From contig NZ_CP092519.1 in assembly GCF_022430525.1 (NCBI RefSeq), positions 870,454 through 934,453 of the forward strand: a stretch of 64,000 nt of DNA. The letters are read 5' to 3'. Under the pieces are notes generated by a model that was not told where the DNA came from, did not search any database, and was given only the letters and a program-made list of their open reading frames with translations. Position numbers and translations under genes: made by a program. This DNA is from Cetobacterium somerae. GTDB taxonomy: Bacteria; Fusobacteriota; Fusobacteriia; Fusobacteriales; Fusobacteriaceae. Numbering within the stretch: position 1 is the stretch's first letter; each line of letters begins with the position of its first letter. Below are positions 29,459 through 41,834 of the stretch, piece after piece.

Positions 29459-30889
29459 TTAGAGCAATCCCAGTATTCCCCAGTAAGGAACACAAATAAC
29501 TAATAGAAAAATTATACTTAGTATCATTTTTAATAGATAGATTTTTACAAACTCTTTTAGACTCATAACACCATAACTAAACATCATTAGAGGTAAAACA
29601 TATTCATAAGGAAATATGATTTGTTCTAATCCAACAGCATAAGAGTTTAAGATTACAGTTGGTGAAATCCCATTTTGAATAGCAGCTTCTACTAAAGGTT
29701 GTGTTAATGCACTAGCAGCAGCTAAAGGTGTAAGTAAGAAGTTAACAATAACTCCTATTAACCAACTTATAGAAACTATTGCAAAACTACTTCCTGTTAA
29801 ATATCCTGTTAGAATTTTGCCTATAAATGCTCCAGTTCCAGTAGCCATAGATACAGCTCCTATTGTCATAGCTCCTGTCATTAAAATTATCATAGGCATA
29901 TTTACACTTTTTAAATCTTTATCTTCAGCTACATTTATCCCTGGTAGATAAAAACAAAAAGCTCCTATAGCAAAAACCCATCCAGCAGATATTTTATGAA
30001 TACTACTAGTACATAAAATTGCAACCATAATTGCTAATACAAATATTACTTTTTTTTCACTTATGGTCATTTTTCCAAGTTTTGAATGTTCTTTATCAAA
30101 GTATTCTTTTGTTTTAAAATGGTTCTCTTTTTTAAAAATACTAGCATTTCCTTTGTAAAAAAATAGAATTGCTATTATATAAACCGTAGATAAAAGGAAT
30201 GTCATTATTCCCATCTCTTTCATATATTCTATCCAACTTAAATGAACGTTAAGGTTTCTTGCTATTGAGTATGAAATTAAATTTATTCCATCTACAATTG
30301 TCCAAGGAGTTAAAGCCATAAATGAACTTCCAGCCATTATTGCTATAGCTTCTTTTGAATTTTTCTTTAAATCTAAAGCTGTGATTATTCCATAAGCTAA
30401 AGGTAAAAATAAAGTTGTTCTCGCAGCAGTACTGGGTATAATTATGCATAATGTTAATCCAACAATTAGAAAACCAAATAGTATCCCTTTATATGTTCCA
30501 CCCGCAGTTTTTATAGCTGTTATAGCCATTCTTTTCATTAAACCAGTTCTTTCAAAAACACTTGATATAACCATTCCACCTATAAATAACCAAGGCATCT
30601 CTGTTGTCCAAGGCGAAAATGCTTGAGCTGGAGTTGCTAATCCAAAGCTAATATAAACAATCGGCAAAACTAAAGCTGGTGCAGCTAAAGGCATTAGTTC
30701 GAAGGCCCAAATCATAATAATTAAAATTGTAATCATGAAAAAGGTTCTTATATTTATAGTATAGTTTTCATTAACTTGCATAAGCATTGGGGTAAACATC
30801 ATCATTATAGAAATAATCCATTTTATTAATTTTTTTCTATCAAAGCCTCGTTCTATTGCAATATCATTTAATTGTGCAACATTTTCCAT
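29459..30889 (-). CDS. SLC13/DASS-family anion:sodium symporter
   Basis: 476 aa with about 11-12 membrane helices. The N-terminal cytoplasmic stretch is followed by two repeats of the divalent-anion/sodium symporter fold. Motifs include IIPSTAARTTLFLPLA in the first half and a TPLAAASALTQPLVEAA counterpart in the second, where family members have SNT-type sodium sites. Expected substrates are dicarboxylates, sulfate or related anions. RBS AAAGGAGG lies immediately after the T-run of a terminator that follows the arylsulfotransferase gene, so expression may come by read-through from that operon or from an unseen promoter. Confidence 0.85.
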   Translation of the reverse strand: MENVAQLNDIAIERGFDRKKLIKWIISIMMMFTPMLMQVNENYTINIRTFFMITILIIMIWAFELMPLAAPALVLPIVYISFGLATPAQAFSPWTTEMPWLFIGGMVISSVFERTGLMKRMAITAIKTAGGTYKGILFGFLIVGLTLCIIIPSTAARTTLFLPLAYGIITALDLKKNSKEAIAIMAGSSFMALTPWTIVDGINLISYSIARNLNVHLSWIEYMKEMGIMTFLLSTVYIIAILFFYKGNASIFKKENHFKTKEYFDKEHSKLGKMTISEKKVIFVLAIMVAILCTSSIHKISAGWVFAIGAFCFYLPGINVAEDKDLKSVNMPMIILMTGAMTIGAVSMATGTGAFIGKILTGYLTGSSFAIVSISWLIGVIVNFLLTPLAAASALTQPLVEAAIQNGISPTVILNSYAVGLEQIIFPYEYVLPLMMFSYGVMSLKEFVKIYLLKMILSIIFLLVICVPYWGILGLL

Positions 30890-30948: not shown

Positions 30949-32736
30949 TTACTGTTCTAAGAATTCCTCTACCTCATCAATTGAATGTGACCCTATTAAT
31001 CTTCCTATTAATTCTCCATTTTTGTATATTATTAAAGTAGGAATTGATTTAATCTTATTCTCTTCTAAGTATGGTTTTTCTTTGTCGGCATCTAGATGAT
31101 ATTGCTCAAATTTTCCTTCAAATTCAGGCAATAGCTCTTCTAGTATAGGTTGTAAATCTCTACAGTTTTTACATCTTTCAGCTCCTACAAATATAAGGAT
31201 ATCTGTTTTTTGAGCAACTTTTTCCTTTAATTTTGCAGATGTTATTCCAGGGAACAACTTTTCATTTATATCAAATAGTTTTGGTTTTTGTTCTACTTCA
31301 TCCCCTGCTGCAACACAAGCACTGATAGCATCAGCTTTAACATATGGTGTAACACCCTCTACTTTGATTTTGAAAGCACCACCACTTGGAGCAGCTCCTG
31401 GAACTCTAAAGTTTGAAACATCTAGTTTTTTTATTTTTGTTTCAACTGGTTTTTCAAGTTGAGGAATCCATTCGTAAGGAATTCGGTATGATCTATATAT
31501 CATATTCATGTTCATAATTTCTTTATCCCATCTTGGATTTATATATTCCCAAACAATTTCAAAATCAGGTGTTACTTCGATTAATCTTCCGTCAGATCCC
31601 TCTGTTATTAAGGTATTTCCATTTGGCAATCTTTGAGCTCCACTTATAAATGGACTATAGAATCTTGAAGCATCTAGTGGCATCACAAATCCAGCCTCTT
31701 TTGGTGTATATTGCCATACAATTTCCAATGTAACGGGATCTATTTCTAAAACTCTAGAAAAATCTCTTCTGGCATTTTTTTCTCCAAATTTAGATACAGG
31801 ATTTGGTGCACCATATCCAGCCCATCCTCCATTATCAAATACCAATATATTTCCCTCGCCAGGTAATCCTTTTGGAATCATGTGAGCGTGATGTTGTCCT
31901 ATGATACATCCTAAATGTTTTAGTTCAGGTGTGTTGTAATCAGGTCCTAATTTCCAAACTACTTTTCCAGTTTCTTTACTGATAATAGCAATTATATTTG
32001 TTTCTCTAGCATCCCATATAATATTTTCAGGGTGGAATCTTTTGTCACCAGCTTCATAAAATTTATTTGGACCTAAAGCTGACATTGAATTTATATGCAT
32101 CCAGTCTCCAACCTTTTCAGGATGTGTAGCTCTTAAATTTGGATCTCTAAATAAAACATTTTTAGCTTCTTCTGAAAAACCATACTCATCAAAGTGCTCA
32201 CTACAAATCCATTTCCAAATTATTTTTCCATTCTCATCAACTTCATAAATAATATCATCATGTAAAAGTTTATCTGAAATTTTAGGATTTCTAACATTGA
32301 TGTGACCTAGAATTAAAGTTTTTCCACCACCTAATTTAGGTTCCATTCCAGGTGAATAGTATCCTACTGGGTTTCCTTCTCTTTGGTAATCGTGATGTTG
32401 TCTTGCCATCCATCTAGGAGTTTCTCCTTCATCCTCTATATATTCTAACTCATCAAATTTCCAAACAATATTTCCATCCCAATCTAATTCAACTAAATCT
32501 GTTTGATCTTGCATTCCAAATTTAGGACTTCTTTCCCCTCTACTCCCTAATATATGACCGTTAGGGAAAATTTTATTTGGAAACCCTTGTAATCCTTCCC
32601 ATAAACGTATTTCACGTCCATTCATATCAATTAACATTGCTCCTAAACCAATTAAATTAAATACTGTGTAACCACTCCATGCTTTTTCTGGATTATAAAT
32701 CGTTGCTCCTGTTGGATAAATAGTTGGATGACCCAT
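30949..32736 (-). CDS. Arylsulfotransferase (ASST)-like beta-propeller fused to thioredoxin
   Basis: 595 aa. Residues about 1-440 form an ASST-type propeller with repeated blades ending in W (IVWKF, IIWKW, VVWKL, IVWQY, IVWEY). Its conserved histidines lie in ARQHHDYQ, DWMHINSMSAL and GQHHAHMIP, with SGAQRLPNGNTLITEG near 380. Residues about 512-595 are a complete thioredoxin domain with active site Cys522-Lys-Asn-Cys525 and the cis-proline motif SIPT (Pro566). No signal peptide is seen, whereas characterised ASSTs are periplasmic, so this one appears cytosolic. ASSTs move sulfate between aryl groups without PAPS. The gene starts 28 bp after a thioredoxin reductase gene. Whether it is a true sulfotransferase is uncertain. 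Confidence 0.82.
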   Translation of the reverse strand: MGHPTIYPTGATIYNPEKAWSGYTVFNLIGLGAMLIDMNGREIRLWEGLQGFPNKIFPNGHILGSRGERSPKFGMQDQTDLVELDWDGNIVWKFDELEYIEDEGETPRWMARQHHDYQREGNPVGYYSPGMEPKLGGGKTLILGHINVRNPKISDKLLHDDIIYEVDENGKIIWKWICSEHFDEYGFSEEAKNVLFRDPNLRATHPEKVGDWMHINSMSALGPNKFYEAGDKRFHPENIIWDARETNIIAIISKETGKVVWKLGPDYNTPELKHLGCIIGQHHAHMIPKGLPGEGNILVFDNGGWAGYGAPNPVSKFGEKNARRDFSRVLEIDPVTLEIVWQYTPKEAGFVMPLDASRFYSPFISGAQRLPNGNTLITEGSDGRLIEVTPDFEIVWEYINPRWDKEIMNMNMIYRSYRIPYEWIPQLEKPVETKIKKLDVSNFRVPGAAPSGGAFKIKVEGVTPYVKADAISACVAAGDEVEQKPKLFDINEKLFPGITSAKLKEKVAQKTDILIFVGAERCKNCRDLQPILEELLPEFEGKFEQYHLDADKEKPYLEENKIKSIPTLIIYKNGELIGRLIGSHSIDEVEEFLEQ

Positions 32737-32764
32737 TTTGTAACCTCCCTATTTTATGTTTATT

Positions 32765-33907
32765 TTATTTGTTTATTACTAACTCTGGACTATCTATATT
32801 TTCTTTGTTAAAAAATTTTGCTAAGTGTTTATTTTTTCTAATATCAACATATATAAAATCATCTATGTTATTCTCTCTTAACTCTTTTTCTTTTTCAGAA
32901 AGATATTTTAGCCCATCGCTATCTAAAGAGTTCCAAAATCCAATGGCTACATTTTTATCTTTAATTCTATTTAGATAAATATTCATCTCCTCTAAATATT
33001 TTTCAGCTGCTACAGCTGCTATAGCTCCATCGGCAGCAGCAGTTATAACTTGCTTTAAATATTTTTCTCTTACATCTCCAGCTACAAAAACTCCAGAGAT
33101 TGATGAATTTAATAAACTATCACATTCGATATGACCTCTCTTATCAAGTTTTAATTCTGTTTCTTCTAAAAATTCAGTATTAGGAATCATTCCAACAAAG
33201 AAAAATACACCTTTACAAGGAATATCCGTTATAATTCCTGTTTTTAAATTTTTAACTTTTACTCTTTCTACAGATTCATCTCCTATGATTTCATCAAGAG
33301 TGGAATTCCAAATAAACTCTATTTTAGGATTTTTAAAAGCTTCCTCTGCACTTAATCTATTACAATCTAATACTCCTTCATCATGAAGAACTATAACTTT
33401 TACTTTTGAAGCATATTTGGATATAAACATTCCCTCTTCAATAGCTTGATCTCCACTTCCAACAACAACAACCTCTTGATTTGAGAAAAATTCAGCATCA
33501 CAAGTAGCACAATAAGCCACTCCACTACCTTTAAAATCTACTTCTCCAGGAATTCCTAAAACTCTAGGTCTAGTTCCTGTTGCAAAAATCACACTTCTAG
33601 CTTTGTATTCTTTTCTTCTACTTTTTAAAACTTTTATCTCACCATTTAATTCTACAGTTTTTATGCTATCTCTTACAATTGTAGCGCCTAGGTTTTCTGC
33701 ATGCTCAGACATAACTTCTCCTAGTTTTTCTCCAGAAGTTTTGGGAATTCCAGGGTAGTTAACTATCTCTGTAGTCTTTGAAGCCATCCCACCTATAGTT
33801 CCTTTTTCTAAAATTAAAGTTTTCATTTTGGCTCTAGCTCCATAGACTCCTGCAGCTAGTCCAGCCGGTCCTGCACCAACAATTATTAAATCGTAAATTT
33901 TATCCAT
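32765..33907 (-). CDS. Thioredoxin reductase-like flavoprotein with a degenerate thioredoxin tail
   Basis: 380 aa, longer than ordinary TrxB (about 310). FAD site GAGPAG (11-16), redox pair Cys133-Ala-Thr-Cys136, NADPH site VVVGSGDQAIEEG (from 147) and the second FAD motif GVFVAGDV are all present. Residues about 308-380 resemble a thioredoxin fold, but where the CxxC should be they read GFWNSLDSDG, without cysteines. Such tails may dock or position a partner. The adjacent gene encodes an active-type thioredoxin domain on a sulfotransferase, which makes it the obvious electron acceptor. Confidence 0.88.
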   Translation of the reverse strand: MDKIYDLIIVGAGPAGLAAGVYGARAKMKTLILEKGTIGGMASKTTEIVNYPGIPKTSGEKLGEVMSEHAENLGATIVRDSIKTVELNGEIKVLKSRRKEYKARSVIFATGTRPRVLGIPGEVDFKGSGVAYCATCDAEFFSNQEVVVVGSGDQAIEEGMFISKYASKVKVIVLHDEGVLDCNRLSAEEAFKNPKIEFIWNSTLDEIIGDESVERVKVKNLKTGIITDIPCKGVFFFVGMIPNTEFLEETELKLDKRGHIECDSLLNSSISGVFVAGDVREKYLKQVITAAADGAIAAVAAEKYLEEMNIYLNRIKDKNVAIGFWNSLDSDGLKYLSEKEKELRENNIDDFIYVDIRKNKHLAKFFNKENIDSPELVINK

Positions 33908-34426
33908 GCTATCCTCCGCCCTTTAAATATACTAGTATTTTTTAAATGAAAATATAAATATATAGTAAAAAAATTATTTGTACTATTATTAATAAATATA
34001 TTTTTATAAACTAAAAAAAGTTTATACTTCATAACTAAACACCGTTAAAGGTAGACCATAGCTTATATTTATTTTGAGTTTTTATTCATTTGAAATGTTA
34101 TAAAATGTTTTCTTTTGATACTTTTAATATGTTTTTAATTTGAAAAGAATTATTTATATTCAGGATTTTAATTTAAAAATATATTTTTGTCAATTTTAAA
34201 ATAAGATTAATAAATAACTTTTTAAAGATTAAAATGTGTTCGTTTTTTGCTTTTGTTTTTAAAAGCTTAATTTTGATGAATTCTTTTAAAATACAAATAT
34301 ATTAATATACTTGTATAATTTGTTTAGTTTTTAAGCTTTAATTTTTAAAAAATAAAAATAGAGTTTTAAAATTAACTAAGAAAGAGGTTAAAGCTATCAT
34401 ATAACTTGATAACTTAATTTAAATAG
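33908..34426. other. 519-bp AT-rich desert
   Basis: No open frame of note on either strand. It contains many short A/T palindromes (for example around the two AAGCTT sites near 34264 and 34333) and a TATAAT at 34314-34319 without a -35. It precedes a gene fragment, so it may be decayed coding DNA, but I see no recognisable remnant. Confidence 0.5.
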
Positions 34427-34732
34427 GAGGTAGCTTTAATACCAGGAGATGTAAAGGCTTTATCTGAAAATGCCAGTGCAACAGATTCAAAATTAATTCA
34501 AGGTGAAAATAGCTGCTGGTCTTTAATTGGTGGTAGTTTGCCAAAAGAGGAAGTAGATAGATATGAAGGGCCTGTTCCACCTAATAAAACACATACTTAT
34601 ACAATAACACTATATGCTTTAGACAAAGAGATAGATTTAAAAAAAGGATTTTATTTAAATGAATTATATGACGCTATAGATGGTCATGTTTTAGAAAAAA
34701 TATTTTTAAAAGCTAAATATATAAAAGAATAG
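34427..34732 (+). pseudogene. 5'-truncated YbhB/YbcL (PEBP) family gene
   Basis: The frame opens right after a TAG and reads VALIPGDVKALSENASATDS, then PKEEVDRYEGPVPPNKTHTY and ends GHVLEK..AKYIKE. It aligns along its length with residues about 75-171 of the intact PEBP protein encoded at 44820-45335. The first about 75 residues, including the DPD-type ligand-site half, are missing. An AGGAGG lies directly before the fragment with no start codon, as if a deletion joined a leader to mid-gene. It is unlikely to be functional. Confidence 0.8.
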
Positions 34733-34741
34733 TAAAACTAA

Positions 34742-34778
34742 AAAAGCTGAGTTCAATGAACTCAGCTTATATTTTTTT
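34742..34778. terminator. Bidirectional terminator
   Basis: The perfect palindrome AAGCTGAGTTC..GAACTCAGCTT is followed by T-rich sequence on both strands, between the PEBP fragment and the small lipoprotein gene. Confidence 0.85.
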
Positions 34779-34956
34779 ACTTGTCTAATAATGGCTTTGG
34801 TAAAGGCTTAGTTGGAGCTTCAACTGGCTCAGGAGTAGCTACTACAACCTCCTCAACAACTGCCTCTTGAACTACTACTTCTTCTTGAGGTTGAGTGCTT
34901 GAACATCCAACTAAGAATAAGCTAAAGAAAATGCTTCCTAATACTAATTTTTTCAT
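34777..34956 (-). CDS. Small lipoprotein, 59 aa
   Basis: ATG preceded by GAGGAGGGATTTTAAT-type sequence. The signal peptide MKKLVLGSIFFSLFLVGC ends in a lipobox (LVGC, Cys18). The mature part is only about 41 residues: low-complexity Glu/Val (EEVVVQEAVVEEVVV) then Pro-rich (PEPVEAPTKPLPKPLLDK). It is lipid-anchored with an extended, probably unstructured tail. Short acidic/proline-rich lipoproteins of this type can act as envelope spacers or lysis-like proteins, but no function can be given. It is monocistronic, with a terminator right after the stop. Confidence 0.8.
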   Translation of the reverse strand: MKKLVLGSIFFSLFLVGCSSTQPQEEVVVQEAVVEEVVVATPEPVEAPTKPLPKPLLDK

Positions 34957-35037: not shown

Positions 35038-37668
35038 TCATAACCAGCTATTGAATTTTTTAATAAAATATTTTTTTGCAAAAATTATAGTAAAAAAGTA
35101 TCCAGTAAGTATTAAAATAACCCAAATAAAGTAAGAAATAGGTATTGGTATAAATCCTAAAGTTCCGTTAATTTTAGAATATGGAACAAATAAAGCAAAA
35201 ATCATAATGGTAGAAGTTAAGAGAATAACTTTTATGTTGGCATTAGATTCAATAAAAGGGATTTTTCTAGTTCTAATAAGGTGAATTATAAGAGTTTGTG
35301 ATAAAATACTCTCTATAAACCAACCAGTATGAAAAAGAGCTTGTGTGGCAGGTGAATTAGCCTTAAATATATAAAACATAACCAAAAATGTAATAATATC
35401 AAAGATAGAACTTAAAGGACCTATATAAACCATAAATTTCCCAACACTTTCAGCACTCCAATTTTTAGGTTTTAAAATATCCTCTGTATCAACATTATCC
35501 CAAGGAATAGAGATTTGAGAGATATCATAAAGCAGGTTTTGAAAAAGTATCTGTATAGGAAGCATTGGTAAAAATGGTAAAAAGGCACTAGCTAAAACAA
35601 CACTAAATACATTTCCAAAATTTGAAGATGCTGTCATCTTTAGATATTTAATCATATTAGTAAATATTTTTCGACCAATTATAACACCTTCTAAAAGAAC
35701 TGAAAGTTCCTTTTCTAAAAGTATTATCTGAGCAGATTCTTTAGCGATATCCATACCATTTTCAACTGAAATTCCAACATCACATTGTCGAAGAGCAGGA
35801 GCATCGTTTATTCCGTCACCCATATAACCAACAGTATTCCCCATCTCTTTTAAGAGTCTAACAACTCTAGCTTTATCAAGTGGTGAAAGTTTACAAAATA
35901 TAGTTGTATCTTTTAGAAGTTTTTTTAACTCTAAATCATCAATAGCTTCCATATAGCTTCCATCAATAGCTCCTGTAACTTCAATTCCAATATCTTTACA
36001 TATTTTTTGAGTAACTAATTCATTATCCCCAGTTAAAATTTTAACATCTACTCCGTACTGATATAAAGATTTTAAAGTATCTCCTACACCCTCTTTAGGT
36101 GGATCTAAAAACCCTAGCATTCCAACAAAAGTTAAAGATTTCTCATCTTTATTACTAAAGTTAAGATCCCTATCTTTGGGAAGTGTTTTTTTACCAATAC
36201 CAATAACTCTCATTCCATCCTCATTTAAATTAGAAACAAGAATTTTGATTTTTTCTTCAATCTCATCTTTTATTTCAAATACCTGACCATCAATCTCTAC
36301 AAAATTTGAGATATATAGCATCTCTTCAATAGCACCCTTAGTAATCATAGTTCTATTACCATCACTATCTTCAACTATAACAGACATTCTTCTACGTTCG
36401 AAATCAAATGGTAGCTCGTCAATTTTTTTGTATTTATTTTTTATAGAGTAATGTTCCTCTTCAAACTCTAAAATAGCTCTATCCATAAGATTTTTAAGTC
36501 CTGTTTGAAAATAACTATTTAGATATGCTAAATATAAAACATTATCATCATCAATCCCCTTAAAATTTAAGTATTTTACAACAGTTACCTTATCTTGAGT
36601 TAATGTTCCTGTTTTATCTGTACATAAAATATTCATAGCTCCAAAATTATGTATAGAATCAAGTTTTTTAACTATAGTTTTTTTCTTTGAAAGTTCAATA
36701 GCACCTTTAGTTAAGTTACCAGTTACAATCATAGGAAGCATTTCAGGAGTTAAACCAATGGCAACAGATAAGCTAAATAATAAAGATTCAAACCAAGCAT
36801 CTTTTAAATAACCATTTATTAGAAAAACAATTGGTACCATAAAAATCATAAACTTAATTAAAAGTCTTGAGATATCATCAATTCCTTTTTCAAAACTAGT
36901 TTCTATTTTTGTATTTTTTAAACTTTCACTAATAGTATTTAAAAATGTGTGTTTTCCAGTTCCAAGAACTATTCCAGTAGCAGCTCCACTTAAAACATTA
37001 GTTCCCATTAAAACTATGTTAGATAAATCAGAGATAGTTCCAGCTTTTACAAGTAGATTAGAGTATTTTTCCACAGGATTAGACTCCCCAGTTAATACAG
37101 ATTGACTAATAAAAAGATCTTTACTAGATACAATTCTAATATCTCCAGGAACAATATCTCCAGCAGTAAGTTTAACAATATCCCCAGGAACTAAGGTTTT
37201 TATATCAACTTCCAGAGGAAGATTATCTCTAATTATTGTAACTTTAGTAATAATTAGATTTTTTAATTTTTCAGCAGTTTTACTAGAACGATACTCTTGA
37301 ATAAATTTAATAAAACTGCTTATTAAAATCATAGTTATAATTAAAATTATAGATATCCAGGAACGCTCAGTTTCTTTAGCAAAAATAACATCAGTAAAAA
37401 GAGAAACGAAGGCCAAAGTTCCTAAAATAAAATTAAAAGGATTTAAAAAAGCGAGTAAAAGTTGGATATACCAAGGTTTTACTTTCTCTTTTGAAATCTC
37501 ATTTAATCCAAATTTTTCTAAACGGCTTATGGCTTCTTCATTTTTAATACCTTCTAAAGAGGTTTCTAAAGTCATAAAGACAGTTTTTATATCAGCTTCA
37601 GAAAATAGTTTTAATGTTCCGCTTATACTATTTGAGCTGTTATCAAAGTTTTCATACAAAATAATCAT
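35038..37668 (-). CDS. mgtA: Mg2+-transporting P-type ATPase
   Basis: 876 aa from the ATG; starts three codons either side are possible because GGGAGGA sits very close to this ATG. Features: N-terminal cation-ATPase domain (ETSLEGIKNEEAISRLEKFG), actuator LTGESNPVEK, phosphorylation site DKTGTLTQ with Asp351, hinge GDGINDAPAL, ten helices and the P3B-type segment LGFLDPPKEG. It imports Mg2+ using ATP. The 5' region is short (about 140 bp) and I saw no M-box-like or MgtL-like leader. It is divergent from the autotransporter gene. Confidence 0.92.
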   Translation of the reverse strand: MIILYENFDNSSNSISGTLKLFSEADIKTVFMTLETSLEGIKNEEAISRLEKFGLNEISKEKVKPWYIQLLLAFLNPFNFILGTLAFVSLFTDVIFAKETERSWISIILIITMILISSFIKFIQEYRSSKTAEKLKNLIITKVTIIRDNLPLEVDIKTLVPGDIVKLTAGDIVPGDIRIVSSKDLFISQSVLTGESNPVEKYSNLLVKAGTISDLSNIVLMGTNVLSGAATGIVLGTGKHTFLNTISESLKNTKIETSFEKGIDDISRLLIKFMIFMVPIVFLINGYLKDAWFESLLFSLSVAIGLTPEMLPMIVTGNLTKGAIELSKKKTIVKKLDSIHNFGAMNILCTDKTGTLTQDKVTVVKYLNFKGIDDDNVLYLAYLNSYFQTGLKNLMDRAILEFEEEHYSIKNKYKKIDELPFDFERRRMSVIVEDSDGNRTMITKGAIEEMLYISNFVEIDGQVFEIKDEIEEKIKILVSNLNEDGMRVIGIGKKTLPKDRDLNFSNKDEKSLTFVGMLGFLDPPKEGVGDTLKSLYQYGVDVKILTGDNELVTQKICKDIGIEVTGAIDGSYMEAIDDLELKKLLKDTTIFCKLSPLDKARVVRLLKEMGNTVGYMGDGINDAPALRQCDVGISVENGMDIAKESAQIILLEKELSVLLEGVIIGRKIFTNMIKYLKMTASSNFGNVFSVVLASAFLPFLPMLPIQILFQNLLYDISQISIPWDNVDTEDILKPKNWSAESVGKFMVYIGPLSSIFDIITFLVMFYIFKANSPATQALFHTGWFIESILSQTLIIHLIRTRKIPFIESNANIKVILLTSTIMIFALFVPYSKINGTLGFIPIPISYFIWVILILTGYFFTIIFAKKYFIKKFNSWL

Positions 37669-37811
37669 TCCTCCCAATAATAAAGATATCTTAAATAGTA
37701 TTTACTAAAAAAAATAGATGCTCCTTTAAAAATAAAAAACAGTAAACAAAGATAAATAAAAAACGTTTTGTATAACAGTACAAAATTTAAAATATCAAAG
37801 TGAGGTGCCAT

Positions 37812-40800
37812 ATGAAAGAGAAAATTTTACTTTTATTTTCCATTCTAATAGTTTGTAGTAAGTTATCGTTTTCAGTAAGCTTAGAAGGTACAAGTGAAAA
37901 AGAAGGAGTAATTTTTTTTACAAATTATAACTATTTTAAATCCAACAAACAGAACTTTAAAAATGTAAGTGAAAAGAGAGATATTCAATTAATAACAAAA
38001 GAAAAAGAAGTGATTGAAGTACCAAAACCTCCAAAACCAATTTTACCACCACTAATAATACATACAAATACTGCAACAGTTCCAGAAGATAAACCTATAA
38101 AACCACAAGTTATACCAGATATACAACCAGAAACAAAGCCAAAGGTACCAGATAAACCAGCAGTAATACCACCGCAAAATTTATATACTGATATTTTTTA
38201 TAATAATAGTTGGATTTATAATACTCATTTATATTTAACTCAAGGAGAAGATTTAGCAGTTTCGTCAAGTAATAATCTTTTTACTGGGATGGGAGCTGTA
38301 GCAAGTGGGTTTTCTATTGAAAATAATAACAATGTAACTATTGGAAATAGTAGTTCAACAACAGATTTAATAGGAATGCTATCTTTAAATAAAGGAGATA
38401 TTATAAATGGAGAAAAGGGAAATATAACTGTAGGAGGAAGTAGGAATAATTTTGGAATGGTTGTTTTAGGAGGAGGAATTGGAGAAAACAAAGGTATTAT
38501 AAATGTAAATGATGGAGCTTTTGGAATGTATACAAAAGATTCAACATTATTAAATTCAAATAAAATAGTTATTAATAATGGGGTTGGAATGATTTCTACA
38601 GAAACTGGTACAATAAAAAATATAGGAACAATAGAAACTTCAACATCGGCTGCAACTGCTAGTTTTGGAATGGCAACGTTTGGCACATCAACTGCTACAA
38701 ATGTGGGAACAATTGTAGTAAATAATTCACAGATAGGTATGCTAAGTTTTGATTCAAGTAAATTAGTATCTAATGGAGTACTCGAAGTTAGTGGCGGAAT
38801 AGGTGGATATATTAGTGAAGCTGGGCAGATGGCAAATAATGGTATCATAAATACTACTGATGGAGGAACAGGAGTATACATAGATAGTCAAAATCTAAGT
38901 AAAGGACAGGGATTTAACAATAGTAGTGGAATTATAAATGTTGAGAGTGGATCAATAGGTATGAGTGCTGTAAATAGTGGTATTATAACTAACTATGGGA
39001 ATATAAATCTTATAACATCAAATACAAAAACAGAAACTTCAAAAACTAATCAAGAAGTTGGGATGTATGTAACAACAAATGGATTGGCAACAAATATGGG
39101 AAATGTAAGTGTTGGTAGTAATCAAATTGGAATATACAATAAAGGAATTTCAAACTCTAGAAACTATGGAAATATTCTAATTAGTTCACAGGGAACAGGA
39201 GTAGTCTTAAAGAATACTGCAAATGAAGGATCAACTTTTTTAAATGAGAATACAGGAGTTATAAAAGGGGATGCTGTAACAGGTGTTTTATTAGGTGGAT
39301 CTGGTTATGTTCAAAACTATGGAAATATAGATATTTCAAATGGAACAGCAGCAGTTATGGTAAATGGAACAGGAACAATATATAACTATCATAATATAAA
39401 TATAACTAATACCAAATATGGTATGCTGTCATTAAATGGTGGAGGAATAATAAATGAAAATATATCTGGATATATTTCAAGTATAACTTCAGATAATAAT
39501 GAAAATGCAAAGATGGCTGTAATAGGAAGTGGGTATGCTTTAAACCAAGGAACGATAAATTCAGAGAACACTAAGTATATAATGTATCTGTCAGGAGCTG
39601 GAAGTTTAAGCAATACTGGAATATTAACATCAAATATAACAAGTAATTATTTAACACACACAACTATGTATGGAGAAAAAGGTGGAACAATAACAAATGA
39701 AAAAAAAGGTATTATCAATATAAATGGTGGAGATAGTAACTATGGTATGATAATAAGTGGATCAGGACAACTTACAAATGATGGGACAATCAATGCTGGA
39801 AGTTATCAAAATGGTATTCTTATAACTGAATCCGCAACTGGAATAAATAATGGAGATATAAATTTTGGTATATATGGAACTGGGGTTAGCGCATATAACA
39901 TAACAGCTCAAGGCGAGTTTACAAACTATGGAAATATAATAGGAGCTTCTTCAAATTATCAAGGTGGAACGTATGGAATATATGCTTTTGGAGAGGGTAA
40001 AATATCAAATGTGGGACTTATAAAACTTGATTATGGTAACGCAGCAATCACAATTTCAGGAGGAGGAACAGCAACAAATTTAAAAGGTGGAAAGATAGAA
40101 ATATCAAGTACAGATTATGGTATGTTTTCTGCAAATGGGGCAACTATAGAAAACTATGGAGAGATTAAGGTAATACCTGAGTATAGAACATATAGTATAG
40201 GAAATAGTGCTATGTATGTTAGTGGTTCATCTGGAACAGCTATAAATAGAGGAGAGATTATTGTAGGAGGAGCATACTTTAATGCAATGGGAACAGCAGG
40301 TCTAACAACAATAAAAAATGATGCAGGTGGAACAATAACTATTTTAGATGGAGCAATTCAAAGTTTTGCATTTGATTTAGGAAGTGGAGCAGCGACAAAT
40401 GCAGGAATAGTAAATTTAGGAACTACAGGAGAGTTAGTAAATAATGGAACTTTATTTAATTATGGATATATAGATGCACCAAATGGTATAAAAAATGGAA
40501 CTAATGGAACTTTAGTTATGGAGCAAGGAGGAACAACAAATACTACGTTGAAAGAGGCAGTAATCGGTCTTAGTTATGCTTCGGATATATATAATAGAGG
40601 AGATAAAGCTTTTGGAGTATTAGATTTAAAATTTAATGCAACAGGAATAACTTCGTACTCATACCTATATGATATAGGAAAAAATAATGAGGAAGTTTTA
40701 ATAAGAAGAAAGGATTTTACAGAAATAACTGAAGCGAGTTTAGGTAAATTTTTAGAAGGTATATATTTTGATAGTGAAAATACGACTAAGGATCAATTTT

Positions 40801-41834
40801 TCAACATTTTAAGAAGTGCCAGAAATGGCTCTCAATATAATAGTTATTTGGATACTATTTTTGGTAGAGATATCTATCCTAATATAATATTCCAAACTAA
40901 AGATACTATAGAATATACAACAAACAGTATTTTAGATAATCTAGAAGATAAATTAACAAATACTAGAAAAAGCAGTTTCATTGTAGGGTATACTTTTGAA
41001 AAGTTTAGACAAAAAGGTTTTGATAGAGTAGAGGGTTACGATGACAATCTAAATGGGTTTTATTTAGGGAAACAATATTATTTAAATGATTATAGTGATT
41101 ATGGATTTGTATTTAGTTACACAAGATTAGATAGTGATTATTATTCAAATGTAGGAAAAAGAGAGGATAACTTCTTACAGGGAACAGCATTTATGAACTA
41201 TACTCAAAATGATGTAAAAGGTATTGGAGCTATGTATCTAGGTTTTGCAAAAGGTAATATAAAAAGAAACTTTAATTTGGCATATATAGATTATAGTGAT
41301 AGCACACCTAAATATACAAATATTAATGATAGATATAAAGGGGATACTAAAAACTTTTATATAGGAACATCTGGAAAAATATCTAAAAGATATAATTTTT
41401 CGAGCTTGTTTATAGAACCTGAAGCTAGTGTTTATTTAATGGGAGTTTTCCAAAATAAAATTAATGAATCAGGAGAAGAGTTTAATCTTCATGTAGACGA
41501 GTTAAATAGTTTCTTTAGTAAAGTGAAAACAGAGATTGGAGTTGGAAAAGTAATACCTATTAAAAATTATCAATTGACACTTAAAGTTATAGGAGGACTT
41601 GGACAAGAATTAAATAGTCCAAAAGATGATTTAAAAGTTAGTTTAAGAGAGGCTTCTGAAGATAAAGCTAAAATAAAAGTGGATAGAGAGAATCAGTTTT
41701 CAAAAGAGTTGGGAACAAAAATAAATTTAGAAAAGATAGGTGCGGAGAGTTTAGAATTTTACGTTGATTATAGATATATTTTTGAAGATGATGACTCTTG
41801 GAAAGTTGGAGGGGGAATTGTATATAAATTTTAG
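37812..41834 (+). CDS. Type Va autotransporter adhesin
   Basis: 1340 aa from the ATG after GTGAGGTG. Signal peptide about 1-25 (KILLLFSILIVCSKLSFS), a Pro-rich linker near 65-120 (PKPPKPILPP, PEDKPIKPQVIP), then about 850 residues of imperfect beta-helix repeats built on N-Y-G-N-I, G-T-G-V and I-N-G/N motifs. The last about 270 residues form the outer-membrane beta-barrel ending in GGGIVYKF, with the terminal Phe needed for BAM insertion. The passenger is probably displayed on the surface. No protease triad was seen. The repeats make it prone to recombination. It resembles large fusobacterial autotransporters. Confidence 0.9.
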   Translation: MKEKILLLFSILIVCSKLSFSVSLEGTSEKEGVIFFTNYNYFKSNKQNFKNVSEKRDIQLITKEKEVIEVPKPPKPILPPLIIHTNTATVPEDKPIKPQVIPDIQPETKPKVPDKPAVIPPQNLYTDIFYNNSWIYNTHLYLTQGEDLAVSSSNNLFTGMGAVASGFSIENNNNVTIGNSSSTTDLIGMLSLNKGDIINGEKGNITVGGSRNNFGMVVLGGGIGENKGIINVNDGAFGMYTKDSTLLNSNKIVINNGVGMISTETGTIKNIGTIETSTSAATASFGMATFGTSTATNVGTIVVNNSQIGMLSFDSSKLVSNGVLEVSGGIGGYISEAGQMANNGIINTTDGGTGVYIDSQNLSKGQGFNNSSGIINVESGSIGMSAVNSGIITNYGNINLITSNTKTETSKTNQEVGMYVTTNGLATNMGNVSVGSNQIGIYNKGISNSRNYGNILISSQGTGVVLKNTANEGSTFLNENTGVIKGDAVTGVLLGGSGYVQNYGNIDISNGTAAVMVNGTGTIYNYHNINITNTKYGMLSLNGGGIINENISGYISSITSDNNENAKMAVIGSGYALNQGTINSENTKYIMYLSGAGSLSNTGILTSNITSNYLTHTTMYGEKGGTITNEKKGIININGGDSNYGMIISGSGQLTNDGTINAGSYQNGILITESATGINNGDINFGIYGTGVSAYNITAQGEFTNYGNIIGASSNYQGGTYGIYAFGEGKISNVGLIKLDYGNAAITISGGGTATNLKGGKIEISSTDYGMFSANGATIENYGEIKVIPEYRTYSIGNSAMYVSGSSGTAINRGEIIVGGAYFNAMGTAGLTTIKNDAGGTITILDGAIQSFAFDLGSGAATNAGIVNLGTTGELVNNGTLFNYGYIDAPNGIKNGTNGTLVMEQGGTTNTTLKEAVIGLSYASDIYNRGDKAFGVLDLKFNATGITSYSYLYDIGKNNEEVLIRRKDFTEITEASLGKFLEGIYFDSENTTKDQFFNILRSARNGSQYNSYLDTIFGRDIYPNIIFQTKDTIEYTTNSILDNLEDKLTNTRKSSFIVGYTFEKFRQKGFDRVEGYDDNLNGFYLGKQYYLNDYSDYGFVFSYTRLDSDYYSNVGKREDNFLQGTAFMNYTQNDVKGIGAMYLGFAKGNIKRNFNLAYIDYSDSTPKYTNINDRYKGDTKNFYIGTSGKISKRYNFSSLFIEPEASVYLMGVFQNKINESGEEFNLHVDELNSFFSKVKTEIGVGKVIPIKNYQLTLKVIGGLGQELNSPKDDLKVSLREASEDKAKIKVDRENQFSKELGTKINLEKIGAESLEFYVDYRYIFEDDDSWKVGGGIVYKF

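Follow-up and report, generated by a model that had tools for sequence, protein, structure and literature searches.

The 64,000-nucleotide stretch of Cetobacterium somerae DNA analyzed here (hereafter the window), taken from a genome of 2.97 Mb, contains three consecutive genes on the minus strand: a thioredoxin reductase (TrxR) gene, followed after a gap of 28 bp by a gene in which an arylsulfate sulfotransferase (ASST) β-propeller is fused to thioredoxin (Trx), and after a further 59 bp by a gene for a Na+-coupled anion symporter of the DASS/SLC13 type (Table 1). Judged from sequence, this operon probably encodes a cytosolic aryl sulfate reductase that would convert a phenolic sulfate ester to sulfite. 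The initial annotation of the locus had described the propeller joined to a complete Trx domain, the lack of a signal peptide and the adjacent TrxR with a Trx-like tail devoid of CxxC, and all of these features were recovered in the searches described below; the symporter gene had gone unmentioned.

Table 1. Features of the TrxR/ASST-Trx operon, with positions in the window
Feature	Position	Strand	Basis and remarks
TrxR, 380 aa	32765..33907	-	First gene of the operon; TIGR01292 5.9e-103, Pyr_redox_2 1.5e-45; CATC at aa 133-136
TrxR tail, Cys-free truncated Trx-like, aa ~318-380	32768..32956	-	Homology to L025/L158 tails, model, alignment
ASST propeller-thioredoxin fusion, 595 aa	30949..32736	-	PF05935, PF14269, PF00085; AF2 model; fold matches
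ASST β-propeller, aa 1-445	31402..32736	-	Pfam, AF2 model, fold comparison
His214-Ile-Asn216, aligned with EcASST His356-x-Asn358	32089..32097	-	Profile alignment; invariant
Arg244, aligned with EcASST Arg374	32005..32007	-	Profile alignment; invariant
His282, aligned with EcASST sulfuryl-accepting His436	31891..31893	-	Profile alignment; invariant
Cys474, invariant tail cysteine, proposed S-sulfocysteine site	31315..31317	-	Alignment of 86 clade members
Thioredoxin domain, C-terminal, aa ~491-595	30952..31266	-	PF00085 2.1e-14
Redox motif Cys522-Lys-Asn-Cys525	31162..31173	-	Alignment
DASS/SLC13 Na+-coupled anion symporter	29459..30889	-	PF00939 1.8e-22; TIGR00785 2.4e-23, below its cut-off
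Promoter-like site TTGACA-17-TAAAAT	34165..34193	-	~260 nt upstream of TrxR; motif scan

In a Pfam scan the fusion matched two ASST family models, PF05935 (8.7e-21 at aa 138-383; 74.8 bits against a curated cut-off of 24.2) and PF14269 (1e-15), which together span aa 138-400, as well as the thioredoxin model PF00085 at aa 499-594 (53.8 bits against a cut-off of 23.5); the APS/PAPS reductase domain PF01507 (for adenosine 5′-phosphosulfate and its 3′-phosphorylated form) was not among its Pfam matches. The Trx domain contains the redox pair Cys522-x-x-Cys525 (CKNC) and cis-Pro566, both common to the fused relatives, and the motif G(A/G)E(R/H)CxxC is kept in all 34 Trx-fused members. The chain begins 6 residues ahead of the first propeller motif, which leaves no space for a signal peptide, and 68 of the 89 aligned proteins share this start.

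The AlphaFold (AF2) model of the fusion, built with 45 sequences, has a mean predicted local distance difference test score (pLDDT) of 86.4, with both the propeller and the Trx domain confidently placed and residues 468-483 between them disordered (pLDDT<50). Among solved propellers the nearest match is Cpz4 (9kf4, Z 33.4), followed by Escherichia coli ASST (EcASST; 3elq, Z 24.3, root-mean-square deviation 3.4 over 324 aligned residues). When the sequences of the Protein Data Bank (PDB) were searched with the family profile, no structure of an ASST emerged at E 1e-5, and Cpz4 alone gave a weak match at E 2e-4. The modeled Trx domain superposes on the Trx of the PAPS reductase-Trx complex 2o8v, as it does on many other thioredoxins. 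Cpz4 (9KF4/9KF6) is likewise an ASST of the PAPS-independent type, but it is only ~20% identical to the window protein and serves in the biosynthetic sulfation of caprazamycins; for most ASSTs the natural acceptors and roles are unknown (PMC13426309).

The sulfuryl group is carried transiently by His436 in EcASST, with His252, His356, Asn358, Arg374 and Thr501 surrounding it (PMC13426309). These residues were mapped onto the fusion by numbering a Yersinia periplasmic ASST (L127) on 3elq and then aligning profiles (95.6% probability, E 1.1e-8). EcASST His356, Asn358, Arg374 and His436 correspond to His214, Asn216, Arg244 and His282, each invariant in the family. The alignment does not extend to EcASST His252, which corresponds by position and motif to the invariant His114/115, while the equivalent of Thr501 is Ser365 or its neighbor. 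Because the mapped catalytic residues are invariant, the sulfuryl-histidine chemistry is very probably retained in the cytosolic clade, which makes unlikely the earlier suggestion of a redox enzyme that only resembles ASST. The clade thus shares with the periplasmic enzyme (AssT/ASST of E. coli CFT073, 3ELQ, PF05935) the propeller fold, the sulfuryl-accepting histidine and the His/Asn/Arg set. It differs in being cytosolic, with no N-terminal extension, no propeller cysteine pair common to its members and neither the EcASST-type disulfide nor a Dsb partner, and in adding a tail cysteine and, in the fused members, Trx; its genes adjoin TrxR, AsrABC or lipoyl systems, whereas periplasmic ASST is accompanied by DsbL/DsbI (PMC13426309).

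The tail cysteine, Cys474, is present in 86/86 clade members within an otherwise little-conserved stretch, and in the model it falls in the disordered segment directly ahead of Trx. Three relatives at 36-38% identity, from Calothrix, Methylosinus and Acidisoma, lack a counterpart; their N-termini are more hydrophobic and look exported. It could be supposed that the enzyme performs ordinary cytosolic sulfuryl transfer from a phenol to another phenol or other acceptor, with TrxR and Trx serving just to maintain Cys474 or some other cysteine in the thiol state, or as a redox switch. Such a role would suit the retained ASST active site, and Cys178, found in 64/86 members, could pair with Cys474. 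However, Cys474 is the sole cysteine of the propeller protein in 21 of the 86 members, where an intramolecular disulfide is therefore impossible, and we rejected an intramolecular redox switch as its general role. As the AsrABC linkage and organosulfur importers described below also indicate desulfuration rather than sulfation, we consider ordinary transfer unlikely.

The window TrxR scores 343.8 bits against the TIGR01292 cut-off of 343.45, with C133-A-T-C136 invariant in the alignment, and falls well short of the AhpF-type equivalogs (AhpF, 353.7 against 687.65 bits; TIGR03143, 209.6 against 502.9 bits). It is 41-43% identical to the TrxRs adjoining ASST-Trx in Kluyvera-family genomes, which carry the same kind of tail. 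This tail contains no cysteine in the window protein and is modeled as β-α-β-α over aa 320-365, with block pLDDT of ~73-85 to residue 360 and 58 for residues 361-370. By itself it matches no thioredoxin model, while homologous tails match PF00085 (L025, 4.9e-07; L158 weakly, 0.054). Since the Cetobacterium tail ends near the cis-Pro position of thioredoxin, we describe it as a truncated Trx-like domain, one that may dock on the ASST-Trx fusion. The L025 TrxR (L025:1649-2878) has a thioredoxin-like C-terminal domain that keeps one cysteine (WNATDPAC), which suggests that, in a wider TrxR subfamily, the tail without cysteine arose by decay of a Trx. That gene lies 5 kb from the ASST gene with unrelated genes between (cobalamin-type in the syntenic L027), and it was not counted as ASST linkage.

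The initial annotation had proposed an electron path from NADPH through TrxR and Trx to the propeller while leaving open what the electrons are used for. The path itself is strengthened by recurrence of the pairing, with the same TrxR tail, in the Kluyvera family of another phylum, and we regard it as highly likely. In Kluyvera intermedia the second copy (L140) lies on one strand in the order NhaC-type transporter, TrxR (402 aa), ASST-Trx (603 aa), AsrA, AsrB and AsrC, the last three matching their equivalog models far above cut-off (537.2, 409.6 and 496.5 bits). The order TrxR, ASST-Trx, AsrABC is repeated at L158 (genome G163), where the ASST is 86% identical. Reductive release of sulfite is favored because the ASST residues are kept, the tail cysteine is invariant and AsrABC stands in the same gene run. 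If a thiol were instead the final acceptor, leaving a lasting S-sulfonate on a protein or small thiol for storage or signaling until reversed by Trx, an invariant and flexible Cys474 would be expected, but AsrABC in the same gene run would go unexplained, and we judge this very improbable.

Other neighborhoods point to transport and to a possible substrate. A second Cetobacterium operon (L118) begins with tyrosine phenol-lyase (857 bits against a cut-off of 720.7), followed by TrxR, ASST-Trx, DASS and NhaC; a C. somerae plasmid also has TrxR-ASST-DASS-NhaC, and at L002 one TrxR is flanked by two ASST-Trx genes, each then followed by DASS. DASS genes flank ASST at L002, L018, L020, L026, L073, L077, L078 and L079 as well. 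In the window the symporter likely shares a transcript with the TrxR and ASST-Trx genes and is a candidate for bringing in the sulfate ester or for expelling a product anion. The main copy in Enterobacterales lies in ABC importer operons with a substrate-binding protein of the SsuA family (SsuABC-type), and Paenibacillaceae loci have ABC importers too, a similar one being found in Paenibacillus; LysR or MarR regulators accompany these importers.

The best 80 of 390 relatives retrieved in a genome scan were examined, and the nearest to the window protein were from Cetobacterium. Propellers ~60-90% identical to that of the window protein occur patchily across Fusobacteriota, Bacillota, Pseudomonadota and Thermodesulfobacteriota. 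The gene is present in 6/12 genomes of the window's genus, other Fusobacteriales genera sampled gave thioredoxin-domain matches only, and nothing in E. coli genomes matched the Klebsiella gene at the DNA level. Trx is fused in 34 of the 86 clade members of the set, the remainder ending 5-24 residues past one cysteine; an unfinished quick tree needs three changes and neither establishes nor rules out that the fusion arose once. This patchiness of both fusion and gene could be taken to mean that the fusion is degraded or arose by chance and has no redox function, but such a view is hardly credible given that CxxC is kept in every fused member and the propeller is strongly conserved, at ~60-80% identity, across phyla.

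The initial annotation had held that homologues lacking the Trx domain would speak against the path, and formally this is the case, as ~60% of the retrieved family has no fused Trx. Because many of these anaerobes carry another dithiol relay, we take such homologues to broaden the idea rather than to refute it. A stand-alone propeller is accompanied by a glutaredoxin (Grx)-NrdG2-like protein in Desulfosporosinus, Desulforamulus, Desulfotomaculum, Desulfovibrio, Mailhella and Moorella, with CxRC conserved in 17/17 of the Grx-like proteins near stand-alone ASST. Within one class the Grx-like gene is found in 9/113 genomes, and each of these belongs to the 10 genomes that carry this ASST (hypergeometric p 1.7e-12, uncorrected for relatedness). 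Many stand-alone loci in sulfate reducers and Moorella also encode a lipoyl GcvH-like protein (lipoyl Lys in ESxK, 10/10) together with dihydrolipoyl dehydrogenase (Lpd), lipoate ligase or octanoyltransferase (LipB) and lipoyl synthase (LipA), and loci of this group also include DASS and Crp/LysR regulators.

Seen in its own right, the protein adjoining the stand-alone ASST at L026:7086-7943 fuses a glutaredoxin-like CxRC domain to an NrdG2-like (radical-SAM-derived) domain and has 16 homologues (L017, L018, L020, L034, L035, L036, L038, L042, L046, L051, L056, L068, L070, L073, L078 and L079), seemingly an uncharacterized family. The sulfate-reducer loci L026:6648-15002, L035 and L038 have their own lipoyl GcvH-like protein, Lpd, lipoate ligase/octanoyltransferase and lipoyl synthase at ASST, with no glycine cleavage genes recognized near these three loci. 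Lipoate-binding-protein/sHdr sulfur oxidation also uses GcvH-like lipoyl proteins and dedicated lipoate genes; the direction proposed here would instead be reductive, with Lpd and a Grx-like partner, and no Hdr genes were recognized among the neighbors examined.

In the window genome (L114) AsrABC is complete, with equivalog matches of 468.2, 335.0 and 475.5 bits, while a genome-wide domain search gave no match to PF01747 (ATP sulfurylase) or to PF01507. With no PF01507 protein, CysD and CysH are both absent, so that sulfite must have another source in this genome. A PF01507 protein of ~555 aa, absent from the window genome, occurs in five others of the genus (G002, G006, G007, G008 and G010).

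In the proposed mechanism an imported phenolic sulfate ester would hand its sulfuryl group to His282, freeing the phenol and forming His-SO3. Instead of moving on to a second phenol, the sulfuryl group would then be taken up by the Cys474 thiol of the flexible tail, giving S-sulfocysteine (Cys474-SO3-). Cys522 of the fused Trx is predicted to attack Cys474 with release of sulfite, Cys525 would resolve the resulting mixed disulfide, and the Trx disulfide would be re-reduced by the adjoining TrxR with NADPH, for a net reaction of ArOSO3- + NADPH + H+ -> ArOH + sulfite + NADP+. Sulfite could go to AsrABC for reduction to sulfide or to assimilation, bypassing ATP sulfurylase and the APS/PAPS step. 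In relatives with no fused Trx, its place may be taken by the CxRC Grx-like protein together with a GcvH-like lipoyl protein that dihydrolipoyl dehydrogenase recharges, or else by the general thioredoxin of the cell. Tyrosine O-sulfate is a good candidate for the substrate, attractive because tyrosine phenol-lyase could use the freed tyrosine.

This scheme has a precedent in APS/PAPS reductase (CysH, PF01507), in which a flexible C-terminal cysteine takes the sulfuryl group as S-sulfocysteine and thioredoxin releases sulfite; the plant APS reductase (APR) has a Trx-like redox domain fused at its C-terminus. By analogy, an invariant flexible thiol would lie beside the sulfuryl-transfer site and be served by thioredoxin here too, on another fold. 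The proposed donor, though, is an ester rather than a nucleotide anhydride, a His-sulfuryl step would come first, and no ATP-activated substrate would be needed. Sulfatases and alkylsulfatases also make organic sulfate esters available as a sulfur source, but they act hydrolytically or oxidatively and yield sulfate (or sulfate and aldehyde), whereas the product proposed here is sulfite.

The same reductive logic could act on a substrate other than a phenolic sulfate ester, perhaps some different activated sulfuryl compound such as an N-sulfamate or S-sulfonate. The transporters are of broad types (DASS and SsuA), and sequence is unable to name the substrate. An S-sulfonate would need no His-sulfuryl step, however, and the ASST fold with its catalytic set and the tyrosine phenol-lyase of one operon argue for a phenolic ester, so that we regard another substrate as distinctly unlikely.

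Several observations weigh against an aryl sulfate reductase. By calculation from textbook potentials, the NADPH-driven reaction is favorable only if ester hydrolysis lies beyond ~-38 kJ/mol, a limit that fits activated phenyl-type sulfates and not alkyl sulfates. Many Enterobacterales and Paenibacillus loci have no dedicated reductase. AsrABC adjacency was seen in two related genomes only, and since no full AsrABC was found in the flanks (up to 8 kb) of 80 loci, nor Sir or tyrosine phenol-lyase, the Asr linkage is rare; in the window genome itself the asr operon is on another contig than the ASST-Trx operon. AsrC-sized matches within the genus do not track the gene (5/6 genomes with ASST, 4/6 without). 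Finally, a 99% complete Cetobacterium genome with two ASST-Trx genes (G003) has a single PF01077 match, IspG-like by length, and no sulfite reductase was found in it by this search.

The scaffold is that of an established family, whereas neither its redox partners nor the reaction proposed for it are known from that family, and there is a fair chance that a new enzyme class is represented. No description of such a system was found in the literature searched, which lay mostly outside subscription journals and so does not prove novelty. For the wider claim the balance seems to us even: sulfate-ester reductases would form a class spanning Fusobacteriota, Enterobacterales, Paenibacillaceae, clostridial sulfate reducers and Desulfovibrionaceae, with swappable dithiol reductants (fused Trx with TrxR, or Grx-like protein with lipoyl protein and Lpd), that turns host and plant phenolic sulfates into sulfite, feeding gut sulfide and, in sulfate reducers, sparing the ATP of sulfate activation. 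If so, gut bacteria would obtain sulfite and sulfide directly from phenolic sulfates, which are widespread in hosts and plants, and anaerobes would have in them an electron acceptor that costs no ATP; chemistry parallel to that of APS reductase would have been reached on an unrelated fold, and genes labeled only "aryl-sulfate sulfotransferase" in several phyla would be accounted for.

The promoter-like site upstream of TrxR is the top of 30 promoter matches in the window, a total not above that of shuffled sequences, and is hence weak. No Rfam matches or tRNA genes were found in the window. A 64-aa open reading frame (34538-34732, plus strand) that separates the TrxR operon from a small lipoprotein gene is a probable gene remnant, and we take it to resemble the C-terminal end of a YbhB/PEBP-type protein. 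A terminator-like bidirectional hairpin with a perfect 11-bp stem (34744-34768) stands behind the 59-aa lipoprotein reading frame (34777-34956, minus strand). Further along are a magnesium-translocating P-type ATPase of the MgtA type (35038-37677, minus strand; TIGR01524, 1121 bits) and a 1344-aa autotransporter-like protein (37800-41834, plus strand) with N-terminal repeats and, judged by eye, a probable C-terminal barrel.

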